DNA of 33,445 bases, taken from Bdellovibrionota bacterium. GTDB lineage: Bacteria; Bdellovibrionota; Bdellovibrionia; Bdellovibrionales; JAMPXM01. Below the pieces are notes generated by a model, which searched no databases, was not told the DNA's origin, and was given only the letters and a program-made list of their open reading frames with translations. Numbering within the stretch: position 1 is the first letter of the stretch; every line of letters begins with the position of its first letter. Below, piece by piece: positions 2,952 through 30,025 of this stretch. The position numbers were made by a program, and so were the translations under genes. The DNA is taken from NCBI GenBank assembly GCA_963170185.1, contig CAUJGS010000080.1, positions 1 to 33,445 on the forward strand, given 5' to 3'.

Positions 2952-4115
2952 TCAGATGTAAGATCCTGTTTTGATCTTGTCCAAAATGATCTTTTCAGTG
3001 GTCAAAGGATCACGTGGATCAACGGCAAAAAACGCCTGTTGTTCGCAACGAAGCTTGTTTTTCACAAGCCATTCAAGAATCGCAGAAAGCTTTCTGTTTT
3101 TCTTGTCTTGGAAGAACGGATCGTTTTGCAAAGCATCTTTCGCTTTTTTCAGCGAGCGCGCTTCGGCTTGGTCTTTTTCGCTGACGTTGTAGCAATCAAG
3201 ATCATACTTCTTCACGTCTTCTGGTAAAACGCCGAGGAAGTGAACATCTGGCGCCGAGAAGTCGGCATTTCGAATCAGCGAAGCCGCTGATCCAGCTTTC
3301 AATGTTCGATAGATGTTTTGCATCGTGTACGCATCGAGATCACCAAAGAAGAACATCGGAACCTTCAGCTGTTCTTGAATCAGTTTACACCAACCACGAA
3401 CACCGTTACTTGGAACCCCTTGTGCACCCATGACGATACAGTTGTTTCTGCGAGTCATGCCGTTTGCGACCAAAGTTCCAGCCGTACCTTCTGATTCGAC
3501 GACCAAGCAGAAGTCGATTTTCTTTTTCGCCTTCAGTTGAAGTGACTGCGGTTTGTTTTTTGGCTGAAACGGAGTTGTACCAAGAGTCGAAAGATCGACG
3601 ACAGCCTTGGTGCCATCGGCGAGAGTTTCAGTGACGACAAGTTGTTGGGAATATGTTTGGCCACCGCGATCGTTGGCAAAACAGTTCAGCTCTTCGCGGT
3701 AAACCTCGAGCATGTCGCCGACGAAGTCGATGATTGAGTCGCTTTCGTCCTGTCCCGCAAAATCGAGCGCTTTAAGCTTGGAGTCTTTTTTAATTTTACC
3801 TTTTGAGATGTAATACAATTCACGCTTTGTATTGACGGCGCCAGACTCCAAGTTCTGAAGCAATACTTCGAGCATGAACACAACACGCGCCATTTTTTGA
3901 ACCGAAGAAACATTGAGCTCGGTGCGCACCCGTTTATCACCAGGAGTCAAATAACCCGTTTTTGGATTATAAAACGAGTTATCTAGCGAACACTTTACCG
4001 CCTCAAGTACCGGGCGATTCGCGTTTTCAAGTTCTTCGAGCATCGAGTCACAAAGAAGGCGAACCTCTTTTGGGATATCTTTGGTGAGTTTGCGAATGCG
4101 AATGACTTTATCCAT
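2952..4115 (-). CDS. top6A: DNA topoisomerase VI subunit A (Spo11/Top6A family)
   Basis: Topoisomerase VI is a type IIB enzyme (A2B2) that passes one duplex through a double-strand break. Subunit A makes the break through a tyrosine and a Toprim domain. This 387-residue protein is of usual family length. The winged-helix catalytic motif is TKRELYYISK with Tyr102 as the likely nucleophile (it aligns with the Tyr of Spo11 RDIFY). The Toprim domain shows LVVESEG (Glu208), GAQGVPSNGVRG, and the metal-binding DxD at Asp260/Asp262 in FFFGDLDAY. A good ribosome site (AGAGGAG) precedes the ATG in the 12-base gap after the B subunit, so the two are co-expressed. The sequence is diverged from archaeal relatives (GDLDAY where archaea usually have DGDPYG), but every catalytic residue I can identify is kept. 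Confidence 0.93.
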   Translation of the reverse strand: MDKVIRIRKLTKDIPKEVRLLCDSMLEELENANRPVLEAVKCSLDNSFYNPKTGYLTPGDKRVRTELNVSSVQKMARVVFMLEVLLQNLESGAVNTKRELYYISKGKIKKDSKLKALDFAGQDESDSIIDFVGDMLEVYREELNCFANDRGGQTYSQQLVVTETLADGTKAVVDLSTLGTTPFQPKNKPQSLQLKAKKKIDFCLVVESEGTAGTLVANGMTRRNNCIVMGAQGVPSNGVRGWCKLIQEQLKVPMFFFGDLDAYTMQNIYRTLKAGSAASLIRNADFSAPDVHFLGVLPEDVKKYDLDCYNVSEKDQAEARSLKKAKDALQNDPFFQDKKNRKLSAILEWLVKNKLRCEQQAFFAVDPRDPLTTEKIILDKIKTGSYI

Positions 4116-4127
4116 TTCGAACTCCTC

Positions 4128-6059
4128 TTACTTACGAACCGCTTTGGACGTCGTCGTCGTCGCCGCCGCCTTTGCTGTCGTGGTGGTCGTTGCGGCTTTT
4201 GCGGTCGTGGCCGTCGTCTTTTCGGTGGCTTTCGCAGTTGTCGCAGCCTTACCTGTTCCTGACTTCACTTCGACACCTTTGGTCTCTATCACTTTGGCAG
4301 TCGTAGTTTTATTTGTGCCCCGAGGTGATTCGGACTCGTCAGAAACTTCCTGATCTTCGATATCAGTTTCATCGCCAGAAGCTTCGTCCGCCGCCACAAG
4401 GCCTCGCGAAGAAGCCGTGAAGAACAATCCCGCTTTTTCCTGACGCTCCTTCAATGCCTGAAGCTTCACGTCGGCTTCGGAAAGCTCCTTCTCCGCAGCT
4501 CGCGCATCGCGCCCCAAGAGCTTTTTCAAGCCCTCTTCCGCTTTCGCTTTACGCGCAGGCTTGGCTCCCGAGATGCGAACAAGGCCGTCGACAAGAATCG
4601 GTCCGAACTGCTCGATATGTGCGATTTTGCGCTCGAGATCGGCCTCTTTGTTTTCGCGGCGAATGTGGCGCGAAAGCTTTTGCCCAGCTTGCATCAGCGC
4701 GCGGCGAATCTCTTCGACCAATTCGTCGGAGGCATCGATGGTTTCTTTCGAAGCGTTCTTAAACTTGATGAACGGCGAAACCACCGAAATCGCGAAGACA
4801 TAGGGGCCAAGCGGCAGCGAGTCTTTCGACTGCTGAAGGCCATACGAACGCCAGTTCACACTTTCCACCGCGTTTGTGATCGCACATGCGCTCTTATCAA
4901 ACTGAAGCGGAACACGGTTGGCGAAACGAAGAAGCTGAATCGAATCGGTTTCAGCACCACGATTTAAGAAGCGCGCAAGTGCGACTTCCACAACCACCGG
5001 TTTAAAATCCGCGATGCGCGGCTTACGGGTCACGACCGAGAAAAAGTCGACGTCGCCCAAACGCAAGATCGACTTTGCCATCGACTCTTCACCGACAGTT
5101 AAAACCGAACGTGTTGAAGGCGACTGAAGCTCGGTTTTGCCGATGACCTGAAAGGCCGTTTTAAGCTGCTCTTCGTTTAATTTATTCGTCGGCTGCATGA
5201 GCAGCGCTTTGGGAAGACCGTTTTTAACGAGGTCTTTTAAAGTGAGATCGCTAACTCGCGAAAATCCTGTTTTCAGGAACTTTCCGAACTCCACTTTGCC
5301 GTAGAGACCGGCGTGCGTGATGAACTCACCAAGCTTCATCGTGTGCGGATGTGGCAAAGTCGCCGACGGAACATCTGGAACCGTGTCGCTGACACGTTCG
5401 ATATTCACCCAGTCGTTTTCCGCGAGCTTATACTTAATAGTGAGGTGCGGATTCACGAGAGTCGTACCTTCGAGGTACGTCAAAAGACCGCCGTCACCAT
5501 TTAATTGAATACGGCCGTCGATACGAAACTCCACACGCAGTCCGTGCGGTTTTTCCCAATCGATGGAGTCCTTTGATTTAATAGACCCCTTGTTCTGCTT
5601 GATATCGACGTCGATCGTGGCCTGAATCGCTTTGCGCATGCGCGACGTTTTGGACGTCACGAGAACGCCCGAAGCGTTCGTCAACTGAGCCCACGTCACC
5701 GCAGCCGAGATCCCGATCCCCTGTTGACCGCGCGTACATTGGCCGCGACCAAACTTCGACGAAGCCAAATATTCCCCGAAAACCTTGGGAAGATCGTCAG
5801 GATCGATGCCGGGACCGTTATCTTCGACAATGATTTCGATAAGGTCTGCAGACTTGCTCGATCCAGCGCCTGTTTTTCTGACTTCAACCGTGATTTCTGG
5901 AAGGATTCCAGCCTCTTCGCAGGCATCAAGAGAGTTGTCGACGGCCTCTTTTAGAGTGGTCAAAACCGCCTTCAAAGGCGAGGAAAACCCCACCTGTTGG
6001 AGGTTCTTTGCAAAGTATTCGGCCGTGCTGCTAGACGTAATCGTTTTCGCCATCTTCAC
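4128..6059 (-). CDS. top6B: DNA topoisomerase VI subunit B (GHKL ATPase, Top6B)
   Basis: Subunit B binds ATP, dimerises its ATPase domains and drives strand passage through subunit A. The Bergerat fold is plain: the N-box KEAVDNSLDA has the Mg-binding Asn42, then EDNGPGI, and the lid GRGQCTRGQQGIGIS. It is followed by an H2TH-like and transducer region to about residue 530. After an acidic stretch (about 555-575) comes an unusual tail of about 65 residues made almost only of Ala, Thr and Lys. The start is a GTG at 6059; an ATG two codons later (6053) is an equally good start. The adjacent A subunit and the intact ATPase motifs indicate a working enzyme. Topoisomerase VI is typical of archaea and plants and scattered in bacteria, so lateral origin is likely for the lineage, though codon use looks like the neighbours. 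Confidence 0.93.
   Translation of the reverse strand: MKMAKTITSSSTAEYFAKNLQQVGFSSPLKAVLTTLKEAVDNSLDACEEAGILPEITVEVRKTGAGSSKSADLIEIIVEDNGPGIDPDDLPKVFGEYLASSKFGRGQCTRGQQGIGISAAVTWAQLTNASGVLVTSKTSRMRKAIQATIDVDIKQNKGSIKSKDSIDWEKPHGLRVEFRIDGRIQLNGDGGLLTYLEGTTLVNPHLTIKYKLAENDWVNIERVSDTVPDVPSATLPHPHTMKLGEFITHAGLYGKVEFGKFLKTGFSRVSDLTLKDLVKNGLPKALLMQPTNKLNEEQLKTAFQVIGKTELQSPSTRSVLTVGEESMAKSILRLGDVDFFSVVTRKPRIADFKPVVVEVALARFLNRGAETDSIQLLRFANRVPLQFDKSACAITNAVESVNWRSYGLQQSKDSLPLGPYVFAISVVSPFIKFKNASKETIDASDELVEEIRRALMQAGQKLSRHIRRENKEADLERKIAHIEQFGPILVDGLVRISGAKPARKAKAEEGLKKLLGRDARAAEKELSEADVKLQALKERQEKAGLFFTASSRGLVAADEASGDETDIEDQEVSDESESPRGTNKTTTAKVIETKGVEVKSGTGKAATTAKATEKTTATTAKAATTTTTAKAAATTTTSKAVRK
4131..4331 (-). 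repeat. Low-complexity Ala/Thr/Lys coding tract (tail of Top6B)
   Basis: The last 67 codons or so of the topoisomerase VI B gene are a degenerate repeat of units such as TAKA, ATTT and TSKA. The DNA shows many GTCGTC/GTCGTT-like triplets. The encoded tail is basic and disordered in appearance, resembling the Lys/Ala tails of bacterial histone-like proteins. The open antisense frame over it is a by-product of the repeat. Confidence 0.85.
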
Positions 6060-9758: not shown

Positions 9759-10469
9759 ATGGCACTGATTCTACTTGTCGACGATGATCATGACTTTCTC
9801 GCGGTCGCGAGCAAGCTGCTTGGCCACATAGGGGCTGAAGTGGTGACTTGCACGGGCGCGCTGGAAGCTCTCGAGCACGCGCAAAAACGCGAGTTCGACG
9901 TGATCATCACCGATGCCAATATGAAGCCTCACACCGGATACGAGTTGATCAAATCGATCAAAGCGATTCCTAGCTATGACCTGATCCCGATTGCGATGAT
10001 CACTGGTCGCCGCGAAAAACGAGATGTCGAACGTGCTGTCGCTGTCGGTGCACAAGACTATATCGTGAAACCCATCGACCCAGAGCGCTTCCTTCAAAAA
10101 GTTCAGGAACTCATCGCTCATAGCGAGAACGCACGACGAGCGGCGCGCTTCGGCGAAGTTCCCATGGAAGAAGTGGCGAAACTTTCCGCCGCCGTCGTGA
10201 TCGTCGGCCTTTCCGAAAGCGGTGTCTTGCTGGACTCCGATCACAAGGTGCTCGAAGGGACAGTCATCACCTTGGGGGCCGAGCTCTTCGACAAAATCGG
10301 ATGCCCTAATCCGCAAGCGAAAATCAAAAGCTGCACGCCCGGATCTATCGAGGGCACGTTCGAAATTCGAGCCGCCTTTCATGGACTCGACGATCGTGCG
10401 ACCATCAAAGTTCGGCAATTCGTCCAAGCGAAGCTGGCGCAACAGAAGAAAAATGCGAGGGCCGCATAA
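9759..10469 (+). CDS. Response regulator with degenerate PilZ-like C-terminal domain
   Basis: The 236-residue protein has a receiver domain (1-120) with acidic pocket Asp8-Asp10, phospho-acceptor Asp52 in VIITDANMKP, Thr82 and Lys104 in YIVKPID. The C-terminal 100 residues start after a charged linker (ARRAARFGEVPMEE) and contain LSESGVLLDSDHKVLEGTVI, which has the strand layout of a PilZ domain. The c-di-GMP-binding RxxxR is absent and the (D/N)xSxxG motif reads GLSESG, so nucleotide binding is doubtful. The domain call is an inference from pattern only. The gene starts 13 bases after GGGAGAGG buried in the upstream hairpin, and its TAA overlaps the ATG of the next gene by one base, heading a four-gene signalling operon. 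Confidence 0.82.
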   Translation: MALILLVDDDHDFLAVASKLLGHIGAEVVTCTGALEALEHAQKREFDVIITDANMKPHTGYELIKSIKAIPSYDLIPIAMITGRREKRDVERAVAVGAQDYIVKPIDPERFLQKVQELIAHSENARRAARFGEVPMEEVAKLSAAVVIVGLSESGVLLDSDHKVLEGTVITLGAELFDKIGCPNPQAKIKSCTPGSIEGTFEIRAAFHGLDDRATIKVRQFVQAKLAQQKKNARAA

Positions 10470-10846
10470 TGCATATTCTCTTAGCTGAAGACGATCCCTC
10501 AGTTTCCATCGTGATTCAGATCAGTCTGGAAAAGATCGGCGGGCATACCGTGGAACTCGTGTCCGACGGAGCGCAAGCCGTGAATCTTGCCACTCGCCGC
10601 GCGTTTGACCTCATCATCCTTGACGGCATGATGCCACTTAAGTCCGGCCTTCAGGCGGCGGCGGAAATACGTTCCGCTGGAATTGTCACCACGCCGATCA
10701 TTTTTCTCAGCGCAAAAAACGACGAGAAAGATGTGCAAGCGTTCTTGAATCTTGGAACGGGCTTTATTCCAAAACCGTTTGAACCGACGGAAATTTGCGC
10801 ACGTATTGATGCCATTTTGAATGATGCAAACAAGGGGGCCGGTTGA
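10469..10846 (+). CDS. Single-domain response regulator (CheY-like receiver)
   Basis: The 125-residue product is a receiver only: acidic residues in LLAEDD (8-9), phospho-acceptor Asp52 in LIILDGMMP, Ser81 in FLSAKND and Lys102 in FIPKPFEP. There is no output domain. It starts at the TAATG overlap with the preceding regulator and ends overlapping the TTG start of the kinase gene (TTGA), so the three are translationally coupled. Single receivers of this type usually act as phosphate shuttles or as regulators by protein contact. The Hpt gene three genes along would be a natural partner. Confidence 0.93.
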   Translation: MHILLAEDDPSVSIVIQISLEKIGGHTVELVSDGAQAVNLATRRAFDLIILDGMMPLKSGLQAAAEIRSAGIVTTPIIFLSAKNDEKDVQAFLNLGTGFIPKPFEPTEICARIDAILNDANKGAG

Positions 10847-12174
10847 CCATTCGTGGCCAGCTCAACCTTTTAACAGCAGTGGTGATCGGCGGCTCAGGCT
10901 TTGCCGGTTACCAAGCCTATGAGACTCGAAGAGAGATCGAGGCTTACGACCGTTCCATGAACGACTCGCTTGAAACGCGTTCGGTTCTCTTGCTTCTCGA
11001 AGATCTCCCCTATCACGACGACACCTTCCGCCGCCTTCAAGTTGAGCGCGATCGTCTACAAGAGGCCGACCGTCGACGCGCTTTCGGAAATGCCGTCACG
11101 ACCTACGCCACAAAAAAACGCCCCGAGCTTCGCCGCTCGATTCGCCGAGCCCTGAAGGTCGAAGCGGATCACTACAACCGCAACCGCGGCAAACGCTCGG
11201 AAATCGAAGCGCGCTTTGAAAAGCTGATGATGCTCTCCAGCGGTATTTTGGGACTTGGCTTGTTCCTCGTCGTGCTCACAATCCACGCTCGCATTTTCCG
11301 CGCGATCAATCGACTTTCTCGTCGAATGCTCGACTTCTTGGTCGACCGCTACAGTTTCCAGTTCTCGCAGCCCGACGAAACCGAACTCGGCGATCTCCAG
11401 CGCACGTTCAACTCGCTAGCGCAAAAGGTCATCAACACGACCGATGAGCTCAAGCGTCTCGACCAGGCGAAGTCCGAATTCCTTTCGATCGCAAGTCACG
11501 AACTTCGCACTCCTATGACGTCGATCAAAGGTTCACTCTCCTTGCTCGCAACTGGCGTCGTCGGTCAGCTCGACGTGGGCTCACTTCGACTGATCAAAAT
11601 TGCCGAGGGGGAAACAGATCGCCTGATTCGCCTCATCAACGATCTTCTGGATCTCGCGAAAATCGAATCCGGCGGCCTTCCGCTCAATTTGGATTGGGTG
11701 CAGTGGGATGAGTTCTGCGGAAAGACCCTGGAAGGTCTTGCGGGACTCGCGATGCGCGCTGAAGTTCGTCTGGAGCTGGTGTCGATCCCTTCGATCGAAG
11801 TCAGCATCGACCGCGACCGCATGCAACAGGTTCTTACCAACCTTGTTTCCAACGCGATCAAGTTTAGCCCCAAAGGGAGCGCGGTGCGCGTCTCCATTAG
11901 CCGCGCCAAAACCGGCGACTTGGTCGTAAGTGTTCAAGATCAAGGCCCCGGTATCGCTTCAGAAGATCAGCAGCTGATTTTTGAAAAGTTCCGTCAAGGA
12001 GCGACAGCCGCCAATCCATTGGTAAAAGGCACCGGTCTTGGTCTGGCAATCGCCAAGGCACTCGTTGCCGAGCATGGCGGTTCGATCGGTGTTGAGAGTG
12101 CCATTGGCAAGGGCTCGAGTTTCTGGTTCACCCTTCCAAAATGGCGCGAGAGCGAACTCGCGAAAGTGGCTTAA
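10843..12174 (+). CDS. Membrane sensor histidine kinase
   Basis: A 443-residue kinase starting at TTG. Transmembrane helices lie at about 7-24 and 131-148. The segment between them is highly charged and helical (Arg/Glu-rich, residues 60-125), with no recognised ligand fold. A HAMP-like stretch (about 150-200) is followed by the DHp H-box SIASHELRTPMTSIKG with His219, then the ATPase domain with NLVSNAIKFSPKG (N box), VQDQGPGI (G1), FEKF and GTGLGLAIAK (G2). All kinase residues are intact. The rare TTG start overlaps the receiver gene, implying tight coupling. It is the only complete kinase in this block, so it is the likely phosphate source for the surrounding receivers and Hpt protein (inference). 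Confidence 0.94.
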   Translation: MTIRGQLNLLTAVVIGGSGFAGYQAYETRREIEAYDRSMNDSLETRSVLLLLEDLPYHDDTFRRLQVERDRLQEADRRRAFGNAVTTYATKKRPELRRSIRRALKVEADHYNRNRGKRSEIEARFEKLMMLSSGILGLGLFLVVLTIHARIFRAINRLSRRMLDFLVDRYSFQFSQPDETELGDLQRTFNSLAQKVINTTDELKRLDQAKSEFLSIASHELRTPMTSIKGSLSLLATGVVGQLDVGSLRLIKIAEGETDRLIRLINDLLDLAKIESGGLPLNLDWVQWDEFCGKTLEGLAGLAMRAEVRLELVSIPSIEVSIDRDRMQQVLTNLVSNAIKFSPKGSAVRVSISRAKTGDLVVSVQDQGPGIASEDQQLIFEKFRQGATAANPLVKGTGLGLAIAKALVAEHGGSIGVESAIGKGSSFWFTLPKWRESELAKVA

Positions 12175-12189
12175 ATCCTAGGCGGCGGC

Positions 12190-12570
12190 ATGAGCATCCA
12201 CGATGTTTTAGCGGAACTACGAAAAACCTATCTCGAAGCACTTCCCGCCCGAGCGGACGCCATTGAAAAACTCCTTCAAGAGCGCAAGTACGCGGAAGTC
12301 GAAACCGAGTTTCACAAACTTAAAGGCACCGGAAAAACCTACGGCTTACCGGAAGTCTCGCAAATCGGCGAAGTCGCCGAGCGCCTTGTCGAAAACGGCT
12401 CGACCTCTGCCGAAGAATCAGTACCCGCAGCCCTCAATGTCTTAAGGCGGATCGCTGCGACCAGAAACAACGGCGAGGTTCCCAATCTCGAAAATGATTC
12501 GGACTATCTGTACCTAGCCGAACTCGCCCGCGAACTCCACGAAACCACCTCGGGACGCAATAAACGATAA
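12190..12570 (+). CDS. Stand-alone Hpt (histidine phosphotransfer) protein
   Basis: The 126-residue protein has the Hpt core FHKLKGTGKTYGLPEVS with phospho-accepting His42 and the expected Lys and Gly residues (HxxKGxxxxxG). Flanking helices (about 5-32 and 52-70) would complete the four-helix bundle, and the C-terminal helices (about 80-118) are extra. It lacks kinase or receiver domains. It lies 15 bases after the kinase gene. Hpt proteins carry phosphate between receivers in multistep relays, which fits the two receivers coded just upstream. Confidence 0.88.
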   Translation: MSIHDVLAELRKTYLEALPARADAIEKLLQERKYAEVETEFHKLKGTGKTYGLPEVSQIGEVAERLVENGSTSAEESVPAALNVLRRIAATRNNGEVPNLENDSDYLYLAELARELHETTSGRNKR

Positions 12571-12632
12571 CGCTGCAAATTAGGGACGTCTGGCCCGTTG
12601 GCTTCATCGCAAAGCTAGCCTAATCTAGTCCC

Positions 12633-14018
12633 ATGGCAACGACCGCTCTTAAAGACTTAAGCTCACTCTTCCCCTCCGACCGCTTGGCCTTGGACGAAGC
12701 CTCGCTTGCGCACTACGGTCGCGATTGGACGAAACACTACGACATTAAACCGTTAGCCGTCGTCTTTCCGCTGAATGCGAACGAGGTCGCGCAGCTTGTG
12801 AAGTGGGCTCGCGCCAACCATATCGGACTCGTGCCATCAGGTGGACGCACGGGTTTAAGCGGCGGAGCCTGCGCACTGAAGGGCGAAGTCGTCGTCAGCT
12901 TCGAAAAGATGAATCAGATTCTTGAGTACAATGAAACCGATCGCACAGCGCGCGTTCAACCAGGCGTCGTAACCGAAGCTCTGCAAGAGTTCGCGAAAAC
13001 CAAAAACGCCTACTACCCTGTCGACTTCGCAGCCCGTGGCTCGAGCCACATCGGAGGCAATATCGCCACCAATGCGGGCGGCGTAAAAGTTCTTCGCTAC
13101 GGGCTGACGCGCGATTGGGTTGTGGGCCTCACTGTGGTCACTGGCGAAGGCGAAATCTTGGAACTCAACAAAGGACTGATTAAAAACGCCACCGGCTATG
13201 ACTTGCGCCATCTCTTCATCGGAAGCGAAGGCACTTTGGGCTTTGTGGTCGAAGCTCTTATCAAGTTCACTTCGCCACCCAAACCACTCACCGTCATGAT
13301 TCTTGGCCTAAGCGATCTCGATGCCGTTATGAAAGTGTATCGTGAGTTTCGTACCAAACTGCCGCTGACAGCTTTTGAGTTTTTCTCGGATATCGCGCTC
13401 GAAACCGTCACCAGCCACACCCATCTTCCAAAACCATTGAGCACAGCCTGCCCCAACTATCTTCTGATCGAAGTCGAAAACACCGACGCCTCGATGGAAG
13501 CCGCGATCTTGGAAAGCTTTGAGACTTGCATGTCCGAAGGCTGGGTGCTTGACGGCGCCATCGCGCAAAGTGAAGCGCAAGCACGCGACTTCTGGCGTCT
13601 GCGCGAGGACATTTCCGAAGCGACGGCTCCATTTACCCCTTATAAAAACGATGTGTCGGTCGTGGTCTCGAAAGTACCGGAATTTCTTCTTGAAACCGAC
13701 CGCACGCTAAAAAACGGCTATCCAGATTTTCGCGTCGTGTGGTTTGGACACATCGGCGACGGCAATATGCATATCAATATCCTGAAGCCCGACGGCCTGG
13801 CTCGAGACGAGTTCCTCAAGCGCTGCAAAGGCGTCAATCGCGAACTCTTTGAGATCATCTCCAAACTCGGCGGATCGATCTCGGCCGAACACGGTGTCGG
13901 CCTCGTGAAGCGCGATGACTTAAGTCACACACGCTCGGATGCCGAGATCACACTCATGCGAAAACTCAAATCGGCGTTCGATCCAGACGGAATCATGAAC
14001 CCGGGCAAAATGCTTTAG
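12633..14018 (+). CDS. FAD-linked D-2-hydroxyacid dehydrogenase (GlcD / D-2-hydroxyglutarate dehydrogenase type)
   Basis: A 461-residue flavoprotein with an N-terminal PCMH-type FAD-binding domain (PSGGRTGLSGGA at about 68-79; VDFAARGSSHIGGNIATNAGG at about 130-150) and a C-terminal FAD-oxidase C domain with HIGDGNMHINIL (about 373) and SAEHGVGLVKR (about 418), the metal/substrate site. The family oxidises D-lactate, glycolate or D-2-hydroxyglutarate to the 2-oxo acid. Sequence alone does not settle the substrate. A SerA gene lies 2 kb away; SerA makes D-2-hydroxyglutarate as a side product, which makes that substrate attractive (inference). The ATG has no ribosome site but follows a -10-like TAATCT by six bases, so the message may be leaderless. 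The regulator gene begins 10 bases after it. Confidence 0.9.
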   Translation: MATTALKDLSSLFPSDRLALDEASLAHYGRDWTKHYDIKPLAVVFPLNANEVAQLVKWARANHIGLVPSGGRTGLSGGACALKGEVVVSFEKMNQILEYNETDRTARVQPGVVTEALQEFAKTKNAYYPVDFAARGSSHIGGNIATNAGGVKVLRYGLTRDWVVGLTVVTGEGEILELNKGLIKNATGYDLRHLFIGSEGTLGFVVEALIKFTSPPKPLTVMILGLSDLDAVMKVYREFRTKLPLTAFEFFSDIALETVTSHTHLPKPLSTACPNYLLIEVENTDASMEAAILESFETCMSEGWVLDGAIAQSEAQARDFWRLREDISEATAPFTPYKNDVSVVVSKVPEFLLETDRTLKNGYPDFRVVWFGHIGDGNMHINILKPDGLARDEFLKRCKGVNRELFEIISKLGGSISAEHGVGLVKRDDLSHTRSDAEITLMRKLKSAFDPDGIMNPGKML

Positions 14019-14028
14019 GAATTCACTT

Positions 14029-14586
14029 ATGACAGACGACCTACAGCCTCGAATTCTAATTGTGGACGACGAACCCGAGATCCTCGAGGTCGTCAGCGAA
14101 CAGCTTTGTGATCTCGAAATTGAAATCGACGGCTTCCGAATCAAGCCTCTGCTGGAAACCGCCGACAACGGCATCACGGCCTTAAAAAAAATCAAAGCCA
14201 TCCGCTACGACGTTGTGATCTCAGACATTCGCATGCCCGCTCTGGATGGCCTCGAAATCGTCGAGCAACTCAATCAAACCGAACCCACGACGAAAGTGAT
14301 TCTTATTTCCGGGCACGCCGATAAAAACATCGCGATTCGCGCGCTCCGCCTCGGCGTCTTTGATCTCATCGAAAAGCCATGGCAGCGTGACATGCTCTGC
14401 GAGTCGGTAAAAAAGGCGTCGATTCTTGCCTACAAGAGACGGCTCAGTGAAATTGACTTCGAAAAAAAGATGGCCCGCTACGCGGCCGCGATGCCACCAG
14501 ATCGCTACGAACAACTGCGAAATGCCATGCGGTCGATCATGCTGAACCAAGTCGACTCTGACAAAAAGCCCACGGACGAAGGCTGA
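14029..14586 (+). CDS. Response regulator with short conserved C-terminal motif (paralogue of the 14588-15226 gene)
   Basis: The 184-185-residue product has a receiver (1-125) with acidic Asp13-Asp14, phospho-acceptor Asp66 in VVISDIRMP, Ser93 in LISGHADKN and Lys115 in LIEKPW. A longer loop than usual sits between helix 1 and strand 2 (CDLEIEIDGFRIKPLLETADNG). After a coiled-coil stretch (about 127-150) it ends with PPDRYEQLRNAMRSIML (155-171), which has no DNA-binding character. The converging neighbour has the same loop and C-terminal motif. An AGGA ribosome site lies before the ATG, ten bases after the dehydrogenase stop. Confidence 0.9.
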   Translation: MTDDLQPRILIVDDEPEILEVVSEQLCDLEIEIDGFRIKPLLETADNGITALKKIKAIRYDVVISDIRMPALDGLEIVEQLNQTEPTTKVILISGHADKNIAIRALRLGVFDLIEKPWQRDMLCESVKKASILAYKRRLSEIDFEKKMARYAAAMPPDRYEQLRNAMRSIMLNQVDSDKKPTDEG

Positions 14587-14587
14587 A

Positions 14588-15226
14588 TTAGGCGGCCCGG
14601 CGAGACTTCTTCTTTGTCTTTGAGCCCTGCTTCTTGAGCGAACTGTCGTGACCGAGCAAGGCCCCTAAGGCATTGCTCTCAGTGTCGGCTTCAACGGCGC
14701 TCGTTTTCTCCGCTCGTGCTTTTTCGACCAAGATCATCGAGCGAAACACCAGGCGCAACTGGCGATAGCGCTCGGCCGGCAATGCCGCAAGCTTCGAAAG
14801 TCGAACCTCGATCTCTTGTTCGATCTCACGACCACGAAACCCACTCTCAAGTGCGCGATGGATCACATCGCGCAAACGATCTAGATTGATAGGCTTGTCG
14901 AGAAAGTCGTAACACCCTAGACGAAGTGCGCGCACCGCGTGTTCTTTGTCCCCAAAGGCCGTCAGAAAAATCAAGGGGACCTCTTTTCCGAGCCCGCGAA
15001 TATTGGCCAAGAGGTCGAGCCCATCCATTATAGGCATTTTTATATCGGAAAGAATCGCGTCAAACCAGTTTGTCTGAACCAATTCAAACGCCTCGCGGCC
15101 GTTTGCGGCTCTCGTGACGCGAACATCGTGAGCTTCGCCGTCGATGAGGACCCTTTGTTCGGTCGCCACCGATTCGAGAATATCTAGAATATCTGATTCA
15201 TCATCGACGATGAGAAGCTCTAGCAT
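14588..15226 (-). CDS. Response regulator with short conserved C-terminal motif (paralogue of the 14029-14586 gene)
   Basis: The 212-residue product has a receiver with acidic Asp8-Asp9, phospho-acceptor Asp61 in AILSDIKMP, Thr89 and Lys111 in DFLDKPI. The same long loop as the convergent gene occurs (VLIDGEAHDVRVTRAANG). After a coiled-coil helix (about 120-147) comes LPAERYRQLRLVFRSMIL (149-166), matching the neighbour. The last 45 residues are disordered and end in a basic Lys/Arg cluster (KTKKKSRRAA). No known output domain. Stop codons of the two paralogues are one base apart, tail to tail. It is divergent from the DHp-only gene at 15330. Confidence 0.92.
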   Translation of the reverse strand: MLELLIVDDESDILDILESVATEQRVLIDGEAHDVRVTRAANGREAFELVQTNWFDAILSDIKMPIMDGLDLLANIRGLGKEVPLIFLTAFGDKEHAVRALRLGCYDFLDKPINLDRLRDVIHRALESGFRGREIEQEIEVRLSKLAALPAERYRQLRLVFRSMILVEKARAEKTSAVEADTESNALGALLGHDSSLKKQGSKTKKKSRRAA

Positions 15227-15272
15227 CGATCTCTTATCGGCATTTTCTGGACTCAGGCTAAATACGATTTAA

Positions 15273-15297
15273 CAACCGTTTCATATTGGGACGGTTG
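15273..15297. promoter_or_regulatory. Inverted repeat in divergent intergenic region, possible operator
   Basis: A perfect 7-base inverted repeat, CAACCGT-N11-ACGGTTG, sits in the 103-base gap between the divergent regulator gene (start 15226) and DHp-only gene (start 15330). Arm centres are 18 bases apart. No T-run follows on either strand, so it is not a terminator. A binding site for a dimeric regulator is inferred. Confidence 0.4.
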
Positions 15298-15329
15298 AAT
15301 TTGAGCCAGAACAGAGGAGAATTTAAGTC

Positions 15330-15605
15330 ATGGCAGATTCGCAAAAAACACGAAAAACGGCCTCAGAACTCAGCCTCTTTGAACTCGCCCAAGAGGGCCG
15401 GGAGTTCCTGCATGACATCTCAAACCCCTTGGCCATCGCAAGTGGACTTGTCGAAGCCTTTCGCGACGAAACGGCGCGCGAGAAACAAAAACTGACCGAG
15501 GGCCAAAAACGCAAGCTCGACAAAATGGTAAAAGCTCTCGAACGCATCGAAGACGCGATCACCGAACACCGCAAGCGCCTCATCGAAGCCCAGTCTCACC
15601 AATAA
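15330..15605 (+). CDS. DHp-like phosphotransfer protein without ATPase domain
   Basis: The 91-residue protein is nearly all helical. Residues 25-38 (FLHDISNPLAIASG) match the H-box of histidine kinases (H-[DE]-x-x-[NT]-P-L) with candidate phospho-histidine His28. A charged turn (RDETAREKQKLTEGQ) and a second long helix (about 60-86, KRKLDKMVKALERIEDAI) complete a two-helix DHp hairpin. There is no ATP-binding domain. Known parallels are Spo0B and ChpT, which are DHp-like phosphotransferases with a remnant ATPase fold; this protein is shorter than both. The likely role is phosphate transfer between receivers or kinase dimer interference (inference). A ribosome site (AGAGGAG) lies upstream. A weak hairpin (AAGG/CCTT) and six Ts after the stop (15605-15622) may end transcription. 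Confidence 0.8.
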   Translation: MADSQKTRKTASELSLFELAQEGREFLHDISNPLAIASGLVEAFRDETAREKQKLTEGQKRKLDKMVKALERIEDAITEHRKRLIEAQSHQ

Positions 15606-16927: not shown

Positions 16928-18331
16928 ATGTCGAAAACCAACCTTACTCGCCGCGTTCTGGTCCTGGATGATGACGACCTGGTTCCAGCATCGCTTCGCC
17001 TAGCCCTTCCTAGCCATTGGTCAATGACCGCGTGCTCAACACCGGATGAAGTCTGGTCGCGAAGCGATTTGACCGAGTTTTCTGCCGCATTTGTCGACAT
17101 GCACCTGACCGGTCGCCTGGAAACCGCCGAAGGTCTCGAGGTCATTCGACGTCTCAGTTCCATGGTGCCAATGCTCGAGTGTGTCGCAATGAGCGGCAAT
17201 CTTGACCGAAAACTGATGGAGCAAGGACTCGAATCCGGCGCCAGTCGGTTTCTTGGAAAGCCGATCGTGACAGAAGAGTTTCTTCACGTCTTAGAAAAAA
17301 TCGAAGCGCTCTTGGAGATTCGCGAAACGCGCGAGTCTCTTAGCCAAAGCCAAACTCACAATCCAACTCGTGCCCCAAGGTGGATCGGCAACTCCGAAAA
17401 GTCGAAAGACGTATTGAGGCAAATCGCTAGCCTCAAAGGCGAACCCGGCCCGATCCTCCTAGAGGGGGAATCCGGTTGCGGCAAAGAAGTCGCGGCTTTC
17501 TTGCTTCATCAACAAGAGCTGCCGCGCACTCGTCCCTTCATTCGCGTGAATCTCGGGGCAATTCCGGAATCGGTCTTTGAAAGCGAGATGTTTGGCCACA
17601 TGAAAGGAGCCTTCACGGGAGCCGACCAAAATCGTGCGGGCCTTATCGAAGCCGCAGCCGGTGGGGATCTCTTTCTCGACGAAATCGAAGCTTTGCCGCT
17701 TGCCAATCAAGCTAAGCTCTTGCGCTTTCTCGAATCCGGAGAAACCCGTCGCGTCGGCGCCCGAGAGGCCCAGCATGTTCAGGTGCGTGTGATCGTCGCC
17801 ACCAATCGCAGTCTTTCGGAGATGGTAAAAAGCGGCGAGTTCCGCGAAGACCTTCTCTGGCGCGTAAGTGGCAAGGTGGTGCGTCTTCCGGCCTTACGTG
17901 ATCGCCGAGAAGATATCCCTTTGCTGGCGGAATACTTTCTCTCGCTGGAACGACCTCGTCGCAACAAACACTTTGCTGACGATGCGCTCGCCTTGCTTCA
18001 GCGGCTGCCGTTTACGGGAAACATTCGCGAGCTAAAACGTCTTTGCGAACAAGTGAGCCTTCAAGCCCCCCTTCCCGTGATTCGGGAACAGGATTTGCGC
18101 CAAAGCTTGCCGACCGGATTGATGCCGACTGGCATCGCTTCGTCCATGAATCAGGAAGCCGAGCTTGATCTCAGTCTCGGTTTAAACGAGCTCACTGCGC
18201 GATATGAAGCCTATGTGATTCGTCAAGCTCTCACGCGCTTTACCGAACCAGATCTTGCCGCAGAGAAGATAGGAATTTCGCGTTCCAGTATGTATAAGAA
18301 GATGAAAGACTACGGGATCGAGCGACTTTGA
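16928..18331 (+). CDS. NtrC-family sigma-54-dependent response regulator
   Basis: From ATG 16928 the product has 467 residues. A receiver domain (8-125) has acidic Asp14-Asp16, phospho-acceptor Asp57 in FVDMHLTG and Lys111 in FLGKPI. The AAA+ domain (about 150-385) has Walker A GESGCGKE (180-187), the sigma-54 contact loop GAFTGA (227-232), Walker B LFLDEI (248-253) and arginine-finger region RDRREDIPLL. The C-terminal Fis-type helix-turn-helix contains DLAAEKIGISRSSMYKKMKDYGI. All parts needed to activate sigma-54 promoters are present. The frame is open upstream through the serA gene, but the ATG at 16928 begins exactly at the receiver. There is no ribosome site, so a leaderless start is possible. 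It could be the transcriptional output of the phosphorelay coded upstream (inference). Confidence 0.92.
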   Translation: MSKTNLTRRVLVLDDDDLVPASLRLALPSHWSMTACSTPDEVWSRSDLTEFSAAFVDMHLTGRLETAEGLEVIRRLSSMVPMLECVAMSGNLDRKLMEQGLESGASRFLGKPIVTEEFLHVLEKIEALLEIRETRESLSQSQTHNPTRAPRWIGNSEKSKDVLRQIASLKGEPGPILLEGESGCGKEVAAFLLHQQELPRTRPFIRVNLGAIPESVFESEMFGHMKGAFTGADQNRAGLIEAAAGGDLFLDEIEALPLANQAKLLRFLESGETRRVGAREAQHVQVRVIVATNRSLSEMVKSGEFREDLLWRVSGKVVRLPALRDRREDIPLLAEYFLSLERPRRNKHFADDALALLQRLPFTGNIRELKRLCEQVSLQAPLPVIREQDLRQSLPTGLMPTGIASSMNQEAELDLSLGLNELTARYEAYVIRQALTRFTEPDLAAEKIGISRSSMYKKMKDYGIERL

Positions 18332-20963: not shown

Positions 20964-21070
20964 GTATCGGCCGGAAATTCGCTCTGGATGCGGATTTCCA
21001 GGAATTATGTCAAACAGGCCTGGACCTCAGAACACTCGCCGCATCGAAGTTTTCCACACAGAATAACGAG

Positions 21071-22456
21071 ATGGCATTGTTCAAAGCTTTCTCTGGTTTG
21101 TTTCTTTCGGAAAAACTTCCTTCCACTAAACTCTTCTCAAATGGGATGACCGCACTCGTGCTCGCATGCGCACTGACGGCGTGTAACAAACCAAGCTTTG
21201 AAGCCGTTGATGGTTTACAAAGCGAAGGCCCAAGTGGCGAAGTCCCAACTCCGACGCCAGCACCAACACCAGAGCCAACTCCGGTGCCCACTCCAGAACC
21301 GACACCTGCACCAACTCCGGAACCAACACCAGAGCCCACACCTATTCCAACTCCAGTCCCTACACCGGTACCTACACCCGTACCAACACCAGAACCCACG
21401 CCTATTCCGACTCCAGTGCCTACACCTTCGCCCACGCCCGTTCCAACACCAGAACCCACGCCAGTGCCAACTCCGACACCGACGCCAACTCCCTCGCCCA
21501 CTCCAGTGCCGACACCTGTTCCAACACCAACTCCGGTTCCGACCATCACCGAGTACTTCAGCCAATCCGACACCGCAAACAAGGTCGACATTCTCATCGT
21601 CGACGACAACTCGGAATCGATGGAAAGCAAACAACGCAAGATGGGTTCTCGTTTTGCGAACTTCATCTCAGGTATCAAAGATCTCGATTATCAAATCGGC
21701 ATCACAACAACGGACGTCTCAGGACCTCGTGGTTCCGGCTGGGCGACAGACGGCCGCCTCGTCGACTACAAGGGAACGACGACGAAATTCCTGACACCCA
21801 CAACACCAAATGCGCAACAGCTCTTCCTCAACACGATCCGACGTGACGAAACCATCGACTGCGGTGATCGCACACGCTTTCCGTATTGCCCATCTAGTGT
21901 GGAGCAACCGCTGAAAGCGACGATCATGGCGCTTGACGAACGCTTTGCGGCCAACGCCGGCTTCTTCCGCGACGGCGTCGACCTCGCCCTTGTCGTCCTC
22001 TCGGACGAAGACGAAATGAGCGATGGAAAAAATCCGGCGATGACACGTCCGCGTGCGGTCATCGACGCATTCACGGCTGTGTTTGCCGACACGAAGCGAT
22101 TCATGGCTCACGGAATTATCATCAAGCCAAACGATTCAACGTGCCTGAACGCTCAGAGAAAAGATTCAGGTGTTGGATACTACGGCCATCAAGTAAATGC
22201 CCTTGCGACCATGACAGGCGGACGAACATATTCCATCTGCGATGCCGACTACGGAAAACATCTTTCGTCGATCTCGGACGATGTTCGTAAACTCGTCTCG
22301 AGCTTTGAGCTCAAGTTTGAGCCGATCCCAAGCTCGGTCAAAGTTTCCGTCTGGCCCGCCACTTCCATCAAATGGCGCGTAGAGGGAAAACTCGTCGTCT
22401 TCGACTCACCACCGCCAGCCGGTTCACGAGTCGAAGTGACCTATGTCGCCAAGTGA
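21071..22456 (+). CDS. von Willebrand factor A-domain lipoprotein with Pro-Thr repeat linker
   Basis: A 461-residue exported protein. The N-terminus has a signal sequence ending in a lipobox LTAC (Cys38). Residues 59-158 are an uninterrupted (P-T-P-x) linker. The C-terminal half is a vWA domain: strand [14 protein letters not shown] with a MIDAS-type DxSxS (Asp179-Ser181-Ser183), then Cys pairs at [10 protein letters not shown] and a second Asp-rich strand [17 protein letters not shown]-terminal beta domain (about 410-461) may be a sandwich. Known: vWA domains bind metal and other proteins. Inferred: an outer-membrane lipoprotein that uses the stiff linker to hold the vWA head away from the membrane. 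An in-frame ATG at 21146 would leave too short a signal peptide. Confidence 0.87.
21245..21544 (+). repeat. Tandem 12-base coding repeat (Pro-Thr-Pro-x)
   Basis: About 300 bases of degenerate tandem units of the form CCN-ACN-CCN-xxN encode the Pro-Thr linker. The fourth residue varies among Val, Glu, Ala, Ile, Ser and Thr. Both strands stay open across it, which creates long false frames rich in Gly-Val on the minus strand. Such tracts can change length by slippage or recombination. Confidence 0.9.
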
Positions 22457-22521: not shown

Positions 22522-22566
22522 CTAAAAGAGGTCCCATCCTCCCCGGTGTTTGGCTATAGAGAACGG

Positions 22567-23898
22567 ATGCCGGGAACCAATAAATTTCAAGAGGCCCATC
22601 GGGCAATCGCCCAGGTGTTTAAGTTTCCGGAAGATGTTCACAACATCGAAACCGCGAAGCTCACGTGGATTGTCCGTTTGCGATGGATCGTCTGCACGTT
22701 CTTTCTGCTTCTCTCGCCGGCTGGCTACGTGGTCGGACTTCTCAACAAAAATACGCTCGCCATCTTTGTCGGCGCTCTTGGGTTACTGGCCCTCTTTAAT
22801 CTCTTCACGCGGCTCTTCTTTCTGGGAACTGAACAGGAAACTAGAAAATCTCCTCCAACTCCTATTCTCGTGAGCTCGCAATTCGCCGTCGATCTGGTCG
22901 CTGTCTCCAGTCTTTTGATGATCGCCGGAGGAATCACAAACCCACTTACCCCACTCTTTTTCGTCAACGTCGCACTCGGCGCCGTGCTTATTCGCGGCCA
23001 CTATGCCTGGCCCTACTGGGGCCTCAGCCACACATTTTTTTTCGGACTGCAAACACAGTACGTCCTTGAACGAGTCGATCCCACAACGGAGATCTCCCTC
23101 ATCTTCTGGACAGCGCCGCACATTTTGATCGCGGCGGTCTGGCTCGTGATGCGATCACTTGGTTCTTATCTCGAAAGTCAGTCCGAAGCCTTGGTAAGAA
23201 GCCGAACTTTCACCGAACGCCAAGACCGCCTTCGCGCCATTGGCGCGCTCGCAGCAGGCTTTTCCCACGAGTTCGCAAGCCCTTTGAATGCCGCAAAACT
23301 CCGCCTGGCCCGACTTCGCCGAGACGTCGACTCGAGTCGCGGTGCCGCCGCACTTTTGGAAAACATCGACGCCGCCGAAATCTGCGTCGCCGCCTGCGAG
23401 AAGGTCATTCACGAAATGAATGCTTCGCAGTTTGATGTCGGCTCTCACGAAAAACGAGCCATCCCAATTTCCGAGTTTCTCAATGACATCGGTGAAGCTT
23501 GGCGAGAAGAACATCCCGAAGCAAAACTCAACATCCAAGCAGACCTCGACTCACGGGTCGAAGTGCCGGTCGTGAGCTTCGCGCAAGTTCTTATCAACCT
23601 GCTCGACAACGCTCACGAGGCCAAGCCTGACGGTGAAATCCACATGAAACTGGAAAGAGCCGACTTGTGGATCAAACTCGCCGTCGAGGACACAGGCCCC
23701 GGTTTCTCCGACGCTGTCCTCGAACGCCGAGGCGAACCGTTTCTCACAACAAAACCCAACGGCACCGGCTTAGGTCTCTATGTCAGCGAAATCTTCGCTC
23801 AAAGCCTCGGCGGCCGCTTACTTATCGAAAACCGTTCACCTATGGGCGCAAGAGTCAGCCTAACGTGGCCAGCCTTTCACAACACGGAGCAAGTATGA
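22567..23898 (+). CDS. regB: RegB/PrrB-type redox-sensing histidine kinase
   Basis: From ATG 22567 the product has 443 residues. Five or six transmembrane helices fill about 30-200 (numbering from the GTG at 22546, seven residues longer). The segment GGITNPLTPLFF (128-139) matches the RegB quinone-site motif GGxxNPxxxL. The H-box is GALAAGFSHEFASPLNAAKL with His241. Cys284 in AACEKVI sits where RegB has its redox-active Cys (ERCR region), by my alignment. The ATPase domain has NLLDNAHEA, VEDTGPGF and GTGLGLYVS. RegB kinases sense quinone or thiol redox state and phosphorylate RegA. The adjoining gene, overlapping by four bases, encodes a RegA-like regulator, which supports the assignment. Confidence 0.87.
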   Translation: MPGTNKFQEAHRAIAQVFKFPEDVHNIETAKLTWIVRLRWIVCTFFLLLSPAGYVVGLLNKNTLAIFVGALGLLALFNLFTRLFFLGTEQETRKSPPTPILVSSQFAVDLVAVSSLLMIAGGITNPLTPLFFVNVALGAVLIRGHYAWPYWGLSHTFFFGLQTQYVLERVDPTTEISLIFWTAPHILIAAVWLVMRSLGSYLESQSEALVRSRTFTERQDRLRAIGALAAGFSHEFASPLNAAKLRLARLRRDVDSSRGAAALLENIDAAEICVAACEKVIHEMNASQFDVGSHEKRAIPISEFLNDIGEAWREEHPEAKLNIQADLDSRVEVPVVSFAQVLINLLDNAHEAKPDGEIHMKLERADLWIKLAVEDTGPGFSDAVLERRGEPFLTTKPNGTGLGLYVSEIFAQSLGGRLLIENRSPMGARVSLTWPAFHNTEQV

Positions 23899-24407
23899 CG
23901 AAAAACACAGTTCTGCTCTTGGAAGACGACCTCAATCTCGCATCAAGCCTGAAGCGCGAATTCGAAGACCATGGATTCGATGTCATTCTCGCAAGCCGCA
24001 TCAGTGAAATTCCGGAAAGCTCGGTGCTCACACACGCCGTGCTTGATCTGCGGCTTTCGGGCGGAGAATTTGGCCTTGAGGCGATTTCAAAAATCAAAGA
24101 CAAGTCGCCCGACGCAAAAATCGTCGTGCTCTCCGGTTACGGCAGTATCACGACAGCCGTTGAGGCCGTCAAACGCGGCGCTCTTGACTACCTCACCAAG
24201 CCGGCAAGCTTCGCCGAAATTCTTTCGGCCCTAGAGGGGCGCCGAGTCGCCGAAGACGCCGACTTCAAGCGCCGCTCGCTCTCGGAGATCGAGCACGAAT
24301 ACATCGACTTTGTCCTGACCAAAAATCGCGGCAATATCAGCCGAACAGCAAAGGACCTCGGCATCCATCGCCAGAGCCTGCAAAGAAAACTTAAAAAATA
24401 CACCTGA
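23895..24407 (+). CDS. regA: RegA/PrrA/ActR-type response regulator
   Basis: A 170-residue regulator of usual RegA length. The receiver has Glu10-Asp11-Asp12, phospho-acceptor Asp51 in AVLDLRLSGGEFGLEAI, and the very typical VVLSGYGSITTAVEAVKRGALDYLTKPA with the active-site Lys. The C-terminus holds a Fis-type helix-turn-helix, NISRTAKDLGIHRQSLQRKLKKY, the same style as RegA. Together with the kinase encoded just upstream (ATGA overlap) it forms a redox two-component system. Known targets of RegA are genes of respiration and energy balance; targets here are not known. No terminator is evident in the 110 bases after it. Confidence 0.92.
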   Translation: MTKNTVLLLEDDLNLASSLKREFEDHGFDVILASRISEIPESSVLTHAVLDLRLSGGEFGLEAISKIKDKSPDAKIVVLSGYGSITTAVEAVKRGALDYLTKPASFAEILSALEGRRVAEDADFKRRSLSEIEHEYIDFVLTKNRGNISRTAKDLGIHRQSLQRKLKKYT

Positions 24408-28260: not shown

Positions 28261-28608
28261 TTAGTTTCCATTGCTTCGCGTGCGGATCGTTTTTGCGCCG
28301 TACGCGTGATTCAAACGTTCTAACCATTTCGGCACACCGTAGGTTTCCGGACACGGAACCCAAGCACCTTCTTCTCCGCGAAGCACCGTGCACTCGACAG
28401 CTTCGGGCTTTGAGGCCTCACGCACTTCGTAGGTGACCTGACGACACTCGCCGCCTTCTCCACCACAAACCTCGACCGTCACCATCTGACCAGCTCGTGG
28501 TCCACCGCCAGCGCCACCGACACCACCAAGAGCCGGAACAGCCATCGACATCGTTAGCAACAAAGACATTGTCAGCGGTAAAAGTGATCGCCTCTTCGCC
28601 AATCTCAT
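28261..28608 (-). CDS. Small secreted four-cysteine protein (paralogue of the 29717-30025 gene)
   Basis: The 115-residue product has a signal peptide (basic start MRLAKRR, hydrophobic core to about residue 27, Ala/Gly-rich cleavage region). The mature part has cysteines at 48, 55, 73 and 86 in the pattern VTVEVCGG..GECRQVTYEVR, VECTVLRGEEG and VPCPETYGVPKWLERLN. The same pattern occurs in the neighbouring gene. I recognise no family. Two disulfides are likely. Its ATG overlaps the stop of the HTH gene by four bases (ATGA), and the Coq4 gene follows, so the three form one operon. Confidence 0.85.
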   Translation of the reverse strand: MRLAKRRSLLPLTMSLLLTMSMAVPALGGVGGAGGGPRAGQMVTVEVCGGEGGECRQVTYEVREASKPEAVECTVLRGEEGAWVPCPETYGVPKWLERLNHAYGAKTIRTRSNGN

Positions 28609-29573
28609 GTGTTTTCCTTCACCGGCAGATTCGCATTTTGCACATTCGTGTTTTGCAGAGCTGCCTTTGTCTCGAAAGTTTCAATATTCATCAATTCCGT
28701 CGCGCCAAATGTGAACACGCGCAACGAGCCGTGGTTAGCGGGGTCTCGCGCCAACGCCACTTTTTTTGCCGTGGCCTCGGCATCAATCGCAAGCCACTTC
28801 TGTAGAGTCTCGTCATTCAAACCCTCGGCGTAGAAACCCATGTAGTTGTTCCCGGTCTCGTAGCAGTTCTCGGGCTTCAAATGTTCTTGAAGCAGATGCC
28901 GCGCAACTCCGGCCGTTGTTTCCGGCGACATGTTGACTTGAGCACGGCCTTGGCAGATCTCACCTCGTCCAAAGTACTCCAGCGCTTCTTTTGCGACCAG
29001 GCGCTCGACGACTTTCAACCCGTACTCGCCAAAGCGCGCGCGAATCTGGCTTAGCTTCACAGGGCCTGTCGCGCACAAGATATAAATCTCACCCAAAATC
29101 GGGTTCGTCCGAATCTCGCGATCTAAGTCGCAACTGTAGGTTGCTCCCCGCTCGAGAGTCTGAGGGTTTGCCCGGCGAACAAATTCCGAAACTTCCTCGG
29201 GAAGCCGTTCCAGAAGTTTTGCATCGTCTTCTTCACCCAATAAGAACCGATAAATTTTAAAAACCGTCGCGTAAGTCGGTTTGTTTTCACGATTGCAGAT
29301 TCGAGACAGGGTTTTCTCGTGAATCTCGATTCGCTTCGCCATGTGTTTGAGACGCCGTTTCGGATTCTCACCTTGCTCGAGATAGATATTGAGATCTTGG
29401 GAAACTCTCTCCGCAGCACGAGCCATGATCGCACCGGCGGAATCCGCCGCGGGCATTTCAAATGCGGCTGAAACGCTGCTTTGGGTAGGTTTCGGCACAG
29501 TCATCTTCCTTGAAGAACGAGATGACAGAGAGGAGGTCATTTGACTCTCGCGATTCACATCCACCCTCGACAT
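28605..29573 (-). CDS. HTH-domain DNA-binding protein, uncharacterised
   Basis: The 322-residue protein has a disordered Ser-rich N-terminus (1-45), a helix-turn-helix of the Cro/XRE style at about 75-112 (HMAKRIEIHEKTLSRICNRENKPTYATVFKIYRFLLGE), and a large C-terminal domain (about 125-290) with a conserved-looking acidic EIYILCATGPVKLSQIRARFGEYGLKVVERLVAKEALEYF region that may be a second winged helix. Family not recognised. The start is uncertain: ATGs at 29573, 29540 and 29504 are all in frame. It heads the operon with the Cys-rich mini-protein and Coq4-like protein and is divergent from nothing close, so it may regulate that locus (inference). Confidence 0.8.
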   Translation of the reverse strand: MSRVDVNRESQMTSSLSSRSSRKMTVPKPTQSSVSAAFEMPAADSAGAIMARAAERVSQDLNIYLEQGENPKRRLKHMAKRIEIHEKTLSRICNRENKPTYATVFKIYRFLLGEEDDAKLLERLPEEVSEFVRRANPQTLERGATYSCDLDREIRTNPILGEIYILCATGPVKLSQIRARFGEYGLKVVERLVAKEALEYFGRGEICQGRAQVNMSPETTAGVARHLLQEHLKPENCYETGNNYMGFYAEGLNDETLQKWLAIDAEATAKKVALARDPANHGSLRVFTFGATELMNIETFETKAALQNTNVQNANLPVKENT

Positions 29574-29716: not shown

Positions 29717-30025
29717 CTACGGACCACCAACGATTTCGAATTGATCAACTGGCTTGCCGCCGAATTTCGCGAACGCTTGGTTCAAGCGTTTCAACCAGCC
29801 TGGAACGCCATATTTTGTTGGGCAAGGAACTTCGCCAGCTTCGCCGCTGAGAACTTTGCACTCAGTAACTTCTGGAGCCGATGCTGGACGAACGCGGTAT
29901 GTAACCATACGGCACTCAACTCCCGACTCTCCACCGCAAACTTCAACTGTTACGTACTGGCTTGCTGCCATAGCTGTGCTCGAAAGCATCATCGACGCCG
30001 CCGCTGCCATCATAAACTTTTTCAT
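29717..30025 (-). CDS. Small secreted four-cysteine protein (paralogue of the 28261-28608 gene)
   Basis: The 102-residue product has a short clear signal peptide (MKKFMMAAAASMML, cleavage at AMA-AS, residue 20). The mature part has cysteines at 30, 38, 56 and 68 in VTVEVCGGESGVECRMVTYRVR, VTECKVLSGEAG and VPCPTKYGVPGWLKRLNQAF, matching the neighbour nearly residue for residue while the two signal peptides differ. The C-terminal tail (GGKPVDQFEIVGGP) is unique. Function unknown. A GAAGGGG ribosome site lies before the ATG. It has its own strong terminator, so it is transcribed apart from its paralogue. Confidence 0.87.
   Translation of the reverse strand: MKKFMMAAAASMMLSSTAMAASQYVTVEVCGGESGVECRMVTYRVRPASAPEVTECKVLSGEAGEVPCPTKYGVPGWLKRLNQAFAKFGGKPVDQFEIVGGP

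Follow-up and report, generated by a model that had tools for sequence, protein, structure and literature searches.

Whether signalling genes that lie side by side make up one circuit or several is the question raised by positions 9759-15605 of a 33,445-nucleotide stretch of DNA from a Bdellovibrionota bacterium (contig CAUJGS010000080.1; hereafter the window). This locus encodes four receiver proteins (RR1 to RR4), a histidine kinase (HK), a stand-alone histidine phosphotransfer protein (Hpt) and a protein with a dimerization and histidine phosphotransfer hairpin but no catalytic domain (DHp-only), for which an earlier note on the same DNA had proposed a single branched phosphorelay. Our analysis favors two neighboring modules as the probable arrangement, namely a linear four-step relay, module A (9759-12570), and a later-inserted module B (14029-15605). 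Five observations speak for this reading: the gene content, the intact acceptor residues, the conserved gene order, a fused homologous arrangement in relatives, and the restriction of module B to one family.

Gene content of the locus

Pfam searches detected seven signalling proteins, one more than the earlier note had counted, and confirmed its four receivers, one kinase, one Hpt and one DHp-only protein. Module A is encoded on the plus strand. RR1 (9759..10469, 236 aa; Response_reg, 87.6 bits), the proposed terminal regulator of the relay, contains a receiver followed by a divergent PilZ-like C-terminal domain, and RR2 (10469..10846, 125 aa; Response_reg, 80.7 bits) is a single-domain receiver proposed as the intermediate. 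HK (10843..12174; HisKA, 68.5 bits; HATPase_c, 108.4 bits) has a full catalytic (CA) domain, and Hpt (12190..12570; Hpt, 38.5 bits) is of the monomeric type. RR1 and RR2 overlap by one base (TAATG at 10467) and RR2 and HK by four bases (TTGA at 10843), with HK starting at TTG, so the stop-start coupling described for three genes holds. HK is a membrane kinase, as described, but with a correction: a simple hydropathy scan found one strong hydrophobic segment (~125-155) and an N-terminal segment that stayed below the threshold.

All seven genes lie within 6 kb, but the group is split by a non-signalling neighbor on the plus strand, the GlcD-like FAD-linked oxidase gene (12633..14018; FAD_binding_4 and FAD-oxidase_C), and one of its members is on the minus strand. 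Beyond GlcD lie RR3 (14029..14586, plus strand; Response_reg, 90.9 bits), a receiver with a short helical extension, and its paralogue RR4 (14588..15226, minus strand; Response_reg, 93.4 bits), a receiver with a C-terminal extension. RR4 is the divergent partner of DHp-only (15330..15605, plus strand, 91 aa), and our reading of the sequence places a common intergenic region of 103 bp (15227..15329) between them. DHp-only contains a HisKA hairpin with the motif HDISNPL that scored 28.8 bits, against a Pfam cut-off of 26.9 bits, and lacks the CA domain.

A sequence check showed that the phospho-acceptor aspartate is present in RR1, RR2, RR3 and RR4. HK retains its HELRTP H-box at 219, the N box, DQGPGI and GTGLGL, and the acceptor motifs of Hpt (HKLKG at 42) and DHp-only (HDISNP at 28) are intact. 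Four receivers in this interval compare with 0.07 expected from the 43 receiver domains of the 3.54-Mb assembly (P ~1e-6), an excess over random scatter that is tempered by the fact that two-component genes commonly cluster.

RR1, RR2, HK and Hpt form a conserved unit

We surveyed gene neighborhoods by tblastn with sixteen window proteins against 40 neighborhoods of relatives, the HK loci coming from families f1-f8, of which f1 is the family of the window. RR2, HK and Hpt kept a fixed order on one strand, with RR2 directly before HK, in 32/32 loci with the kinase, a count biased by the selection of most of the compared loci through Hpt or DHp matches, and RR1 was located upstream of them in 27 of the 32. 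A less biased estimate came from separate genome-wide searches, in which HK and Hpt occurred together in 38 of 60 genomes (G000 counted), with Hpt always adjoining HK; of the 22 genomes in which HK was missing, 19 had no Hpt either. Residues H42, K45 and G46 of Hpt were invariant in 22 orthologues. GlcD was less constant, its orientation relative to Hpt being reversed in three loci (L069, L072 and L076). The simplest reading is that RR1-RR2-HK-Hpt would be an old, order-wide four-gene operon beside which module B was inserted later. Homologues of these four genes were thus not scattered singly in related genomes, an outcome that the earlier note had named as counting against a common relay.

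According to the mechanism that we propose for module A, HK would autophosphorylate at H219 and pass the phosphoryl group to RR2, from which it would move to H42 of Hpt and then to RR1. Alternatively, HK could be an ordinary two-component kinase for both RR1 and RR2, with CheY-like branching, and Hpt could serve as a phosphate sink or buffer. The translational coupling of HK, RR1 and RR2 is in line with such a scheme, and so are the cassettes that drop RR1 and keep RR2 and Hpt; however, Hpt was present in 38/38 genomes with HK, and RR1 homologues adjoin fused kinases in which REC and Hpt stand in series, and we consider this scheme improbable.

RR1 homologues adjoin fused HK-REC-Hpt kinases

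The linear relay gained support from family f9, which has no HK/Hpt cassette, yet keeps RR1 homologues in most genomes, mostly with 30-36% identity over the full length. These homologues adjoin or overlap a single gene for an HK-REC-Hpt protein of ~835-850 aa (L251-L253, L255, L256 and L258). The same neighbor was found at L263 and L266, whose families also keep the split cassette, and at five further loci (L254, L259, L261, L265 and L269) the RR1 homologue lies near a hybrid kinase and a separate Hpt. A scan of genome contigs with the RR1 alignment gave mostly generic receivers, the one match of nearly full length in a plausibly related group being L103, from a Bdellovibrionaceae bin, at 27%. 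The repeated association of the RR1 family with HK, REC and Hpt favors transfer in series from HK through REC and Hpt to RR1, and supports the view that the relay from HK through RR2 and Hpt to RR1 may correspond to a hybrid kinase split into separate genes. For these four proteins the phosphorelay that had been postulated is therefore well supported by gene order and by the fused HK-REC-Hpt arrangement.

Three observations weigh against this picture. The fused kinases are only distantly related to HK (37% over the core). In a tree of 40 RR1 proteins, the copies next to fused kinases formed one clade and the split-cassette copies another, the latter with moderate support (82/89) and four paralogues included; with the kinases so distant and the RR1 copies in different clades, the resemblance is an architectural parallel and no proof of orthology. 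Finally, RR1 was absent from its place in five cassettes (L058, L060, which lies at a contig end, L063, L076 and L082), suggesting that RR1 may not be the sole endpoint.

Among known systems, tripartite BarA-type hybrids (HK-REC-Hpt with a separate response regulator) match module A both in their modules and in the chemical order of these, and a like fused form adjoins RR1 homologues in related genomes. BarA-type hybrids are fused, whereas HK, REC and Hpt of the window are three separate genes of one operon and not one polypeptide. The Bacillus sporulation relay (KinA-Spo0F-Spo0B-Spo0A) likewise has a separate kinase, a single-domain receiver, a phosphotransferase and a terminal regulator, but its genes are unlinked, whereas those of module A form an operon; moreover, the phosphotransferase of module A is a true Hpt, unlike that of the Bacillus relay, and RR1 has no DNA-binding domain. 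The FATGUY motif, considered as a means of telling intermediate from terminal receivers, was set aside because it is described as marking only some Recinter families (PMC9981736). If the proposed relay is correct, the locus would be a natural experiment in the splitting and fusing of phosphorelays, since relatives of RR1 occur with HK, REC and Hpt either separate or all fused, and these relatives would permit testing of the effect of tethering on relay specificity.

RR1 is the likely output of module A

The locus had been described as having no recognizable transcriptional output, a description that leaves the C-terminus of RR1 out of account. Comparison by hhalign of this region with PilZ domains from the same genome gave 93.3%, against <=0.6% for unrelated controls, from which the receiver profile was left out because two truncated RR1 copies had carried the RR1 C-terminal domain into it. 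Pfam PilZ matched weakly in 4 of 21 RR1 orthologues, and the c-di-GMP motif pair (RxxxR and [D/N]xSxxG) was found in 0/21. RR1 resembles receiver-PilZ response regulators in having a receiver followed by a putative PilZ-like domain, but differs from them in lacking this motif pair. Given the PilZ-like profile match and the missing motif, RR1 is a candidate non-DNA output and likely the output of the module A relay, and its C-terminal domain would probably act by protein contact. Two results count against the PilZ assignment: RR1 of the window did not reach the Pfam PilZ threshold, and the two-sequence structure model of the C-terminus was of low confidence (pLDDT 35-62). The matches listed in a fold search with the RR1 model stem from the receiver domain.

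We also considered the NtrC-type sigma-54 activator gene (16928..18331, plus strand), which had been put forward as the nearest candidate output. This gene is a syntenic neighbor, still found next to SerA and/or CdsA in 8 of the 9 genomes that have no HK. Since it persists where the kinase is missing, it is a poor candidate for a dedicated relay output and was rejected in that role.

RR3, RR4 and DHp-only were found at this locus in one family only

Outside f1, tblastn and the neighborhoods found none of RR3, RR4 and DHp-only at this locus, while RR1-RR2-HK-Hpt was kept there. Within f1, the divergent RR4/DHp-only pair was found in six genomes (G000, G002, G003, G004, G006 and G012), and RR3 in only two of these (G000 and G004). 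G008 contained DHp-only without RR4, and G007 and G010 kept the four-gene cassette with neither RR4 nor DHp-only. The idea of all seven genes as one conserved cluster was thus rejected.

This distribution bears directly on the single branched relay, in which Hpt (or RR2) would also feed RR3 and RR4, and DHp-only would be a further shuttle within that chain or a drain on it. Such a relay would account for the crowding of seven genes into 6 kb and for the insertion of module B beside the relay, not elsewhere, in six genomes. The position of RR3 also weighs on its side and against two separate modules, because RR3 starts 10 bp downstream of GlcD, itself often the next gene after Hpt, and transcription of modules A and B may therefore be linked. 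However, the core persists in other families where RR3, RR4 and DHp-only are not found at the locus, G007 and G010 keep the cassette without a DHp match, and RR4-like receivers elsewhere in f1 adjoin ordinary kinases in two relatives (at L306, and a kinase tail at L308). With RR3, RR4 and DHp-only family-restricted while the core persists, the branched relay of all seven proteins is left unsupported, and we judge it unlikely.

The two-module reading, in which we expect no cross-talk between the modules, assigns RR4 and its paralogue RR3 to joint action with DHp-only. The kinase neighbors of the RR4-like receivers would suit an origin of DHp-only as a kinase-derived partner that has lost the catalytic domain. 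DHp-only most likely dimerizes into a four-helix bundle, and would either shuttle phosphoryl groups between receivers or strip them from RR3 and RR4, without a catalytic domain of its own.

DHp-only proteins are widespread in the phylum

DHp-only appears to be the most novel part of the locus, belonging to a widespread and apparently undescribed family. Pfam assigns it only the generic HisKA, NCBIfam has no family for it, and the open-access literature on stand-alone DHp proteins and on Bdellovibrio relays contained nothing describing this locus. Of 291 genomes examined from the phylum, 116 contained matches to a nine-member profile, and ~80 encode a stand-alone protein of ~75-110 aa, with short open frames counted by eye. 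The window protein stops at residue 91 with no HATPase match in Pfam. Structure models were made for window sequences and one relative, and the single-sequence model of DHp-only was a helical hairpin with a mean pLDDT of 77. A fold search with this model and a PDB search with the profile returned coiled and helical bundles only, with no significant kinase-domain match, and were uninformative given the single-sequence model.

R24 and R81 were each kept in 48 of 51 aligned members, the residue after the acceptor histidine was D or E in 48/51, and position 32, the phosphatase position, was N, S or T in 48/51. The acceptor histidine itself was invariant (51/51), although the profile used to collect the members already contained this histidine, which lessens the weight of the count. 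Also against our reading, no receiver gene adjoins DHp-only in family f18; in its favor, a receiver gene adjoins DHp-only in 7 of 17 loci outside f1 and f18. For the DHp-only family, the refuting outcome named in the earlier note, homologues scattered singly, was partly borne out, as DHp-only genes are mostly orphans elsewhere.

A decayed, non-functional kinase remnant would also lack the CA domain. Decay accords poorly with open frames of similar length in ~80 phylum genomes, an invariant histidine and the near-invariant R24 and R80/R81, and we regard it as very improbable. A stronger alternative is that DHp-only, with its NtrB-like HDxxN motif, is a phosphatase of RR4 and RR3 instead of a phosphotransferase. 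The HisKA phosphatase motif is [E/D]xx[T/N], which the residues after the histidine and at position 32 fit, and the conserved partner of DHp-only in the window family is a single receiver, RR4. The invariant histidine is a point on the other side, since HisKA phosphatase activity can survive loss of the histidine. NtrB-type phosphatases would resemble DHp-only in the proposed action on RR3 and RR4, but DHp-only has no catalytic domain. The HDxxN motif could suit a shuttle as well as a phosphatase, and we rate the phosphatase as quite possible, if somewhat short of an even chance.

DHp-only shares with Spo0B, ChpT and PhyT a DHp hairpin with a phospho-accepting histidine and no autokinase activity. 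ChpT and Spo0B form a four-helix bundle by dimerization (PMC3433190), and PhyT, Spo0B and ChpT have been described as degenerated kinases (PMC5898713). A catalytic domain, though degenerate, is still present in all three (PMC3433190, PMC5898713), whereas the DHp-only family has no CA remnant. We tentatively suggest, from comparative sequence evidence, that DHp-only proteins may constitute a class, so far undescribed and spread across the phylum, of minimal dimeric phosphotransfer (or phosphatase) hairpins that act on orphan receivers without a catalytic domain, and that were recruited in the window's family beside an older split phosphorelay. If this is true, a DHp hairpin would be a lasting signalling unit by itself, with not even an inactive catalytic domain attached, and the family would inform the evolution of Spo0B- and ChpT-like shuttles from kinases.

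Other DHp-only loci varied in context. The f18 genes show conserved synteny near lon and alaS; the orphans at L214-L246 (HDISNHIVVAHGM type) have often lost the H-box proline, and lie between lon-like and oligopeptide-binding/alaS-like genes, adjacent to a small secreted protein encoded on the other strand. At L213:1139-1552, a histidine kinase open reading frame (ORF) lies upstream of the DHp-only ORF and its end is overlapped by it, a possible pair of a kinase and an extra DHp. OmpR-type response regulators, a receiver class different from that of RR4, flank the DHp-only genes at L236 and L239.

Other features of the window

By eye, the minus-strand genes at 2952-4115 and 4128-6059 look like topoisomerase VI A and B, and the putative topoisomerase VI B gene lies near the locus across the order, with 69-82% identity. 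On the plus strand, the lipoprotein-like ORF at 21071-22456 contains a long threonine-proline repeat and has an open antisense frame (21010-21678), and a RegB/PrrB-like kinase gene (22546-23898) followed by a gene for a receiver with a Fis-type helix-turn-helix (~23900-24407) resembles a RegBA/PrrBA pair. Two small secreted paralogues on the minus strand (28261-28608 and 29717-30025) have a common TVEVCGGE..ECR.VTY motif, and a putative regulator gene (28605-29573) lies between them.

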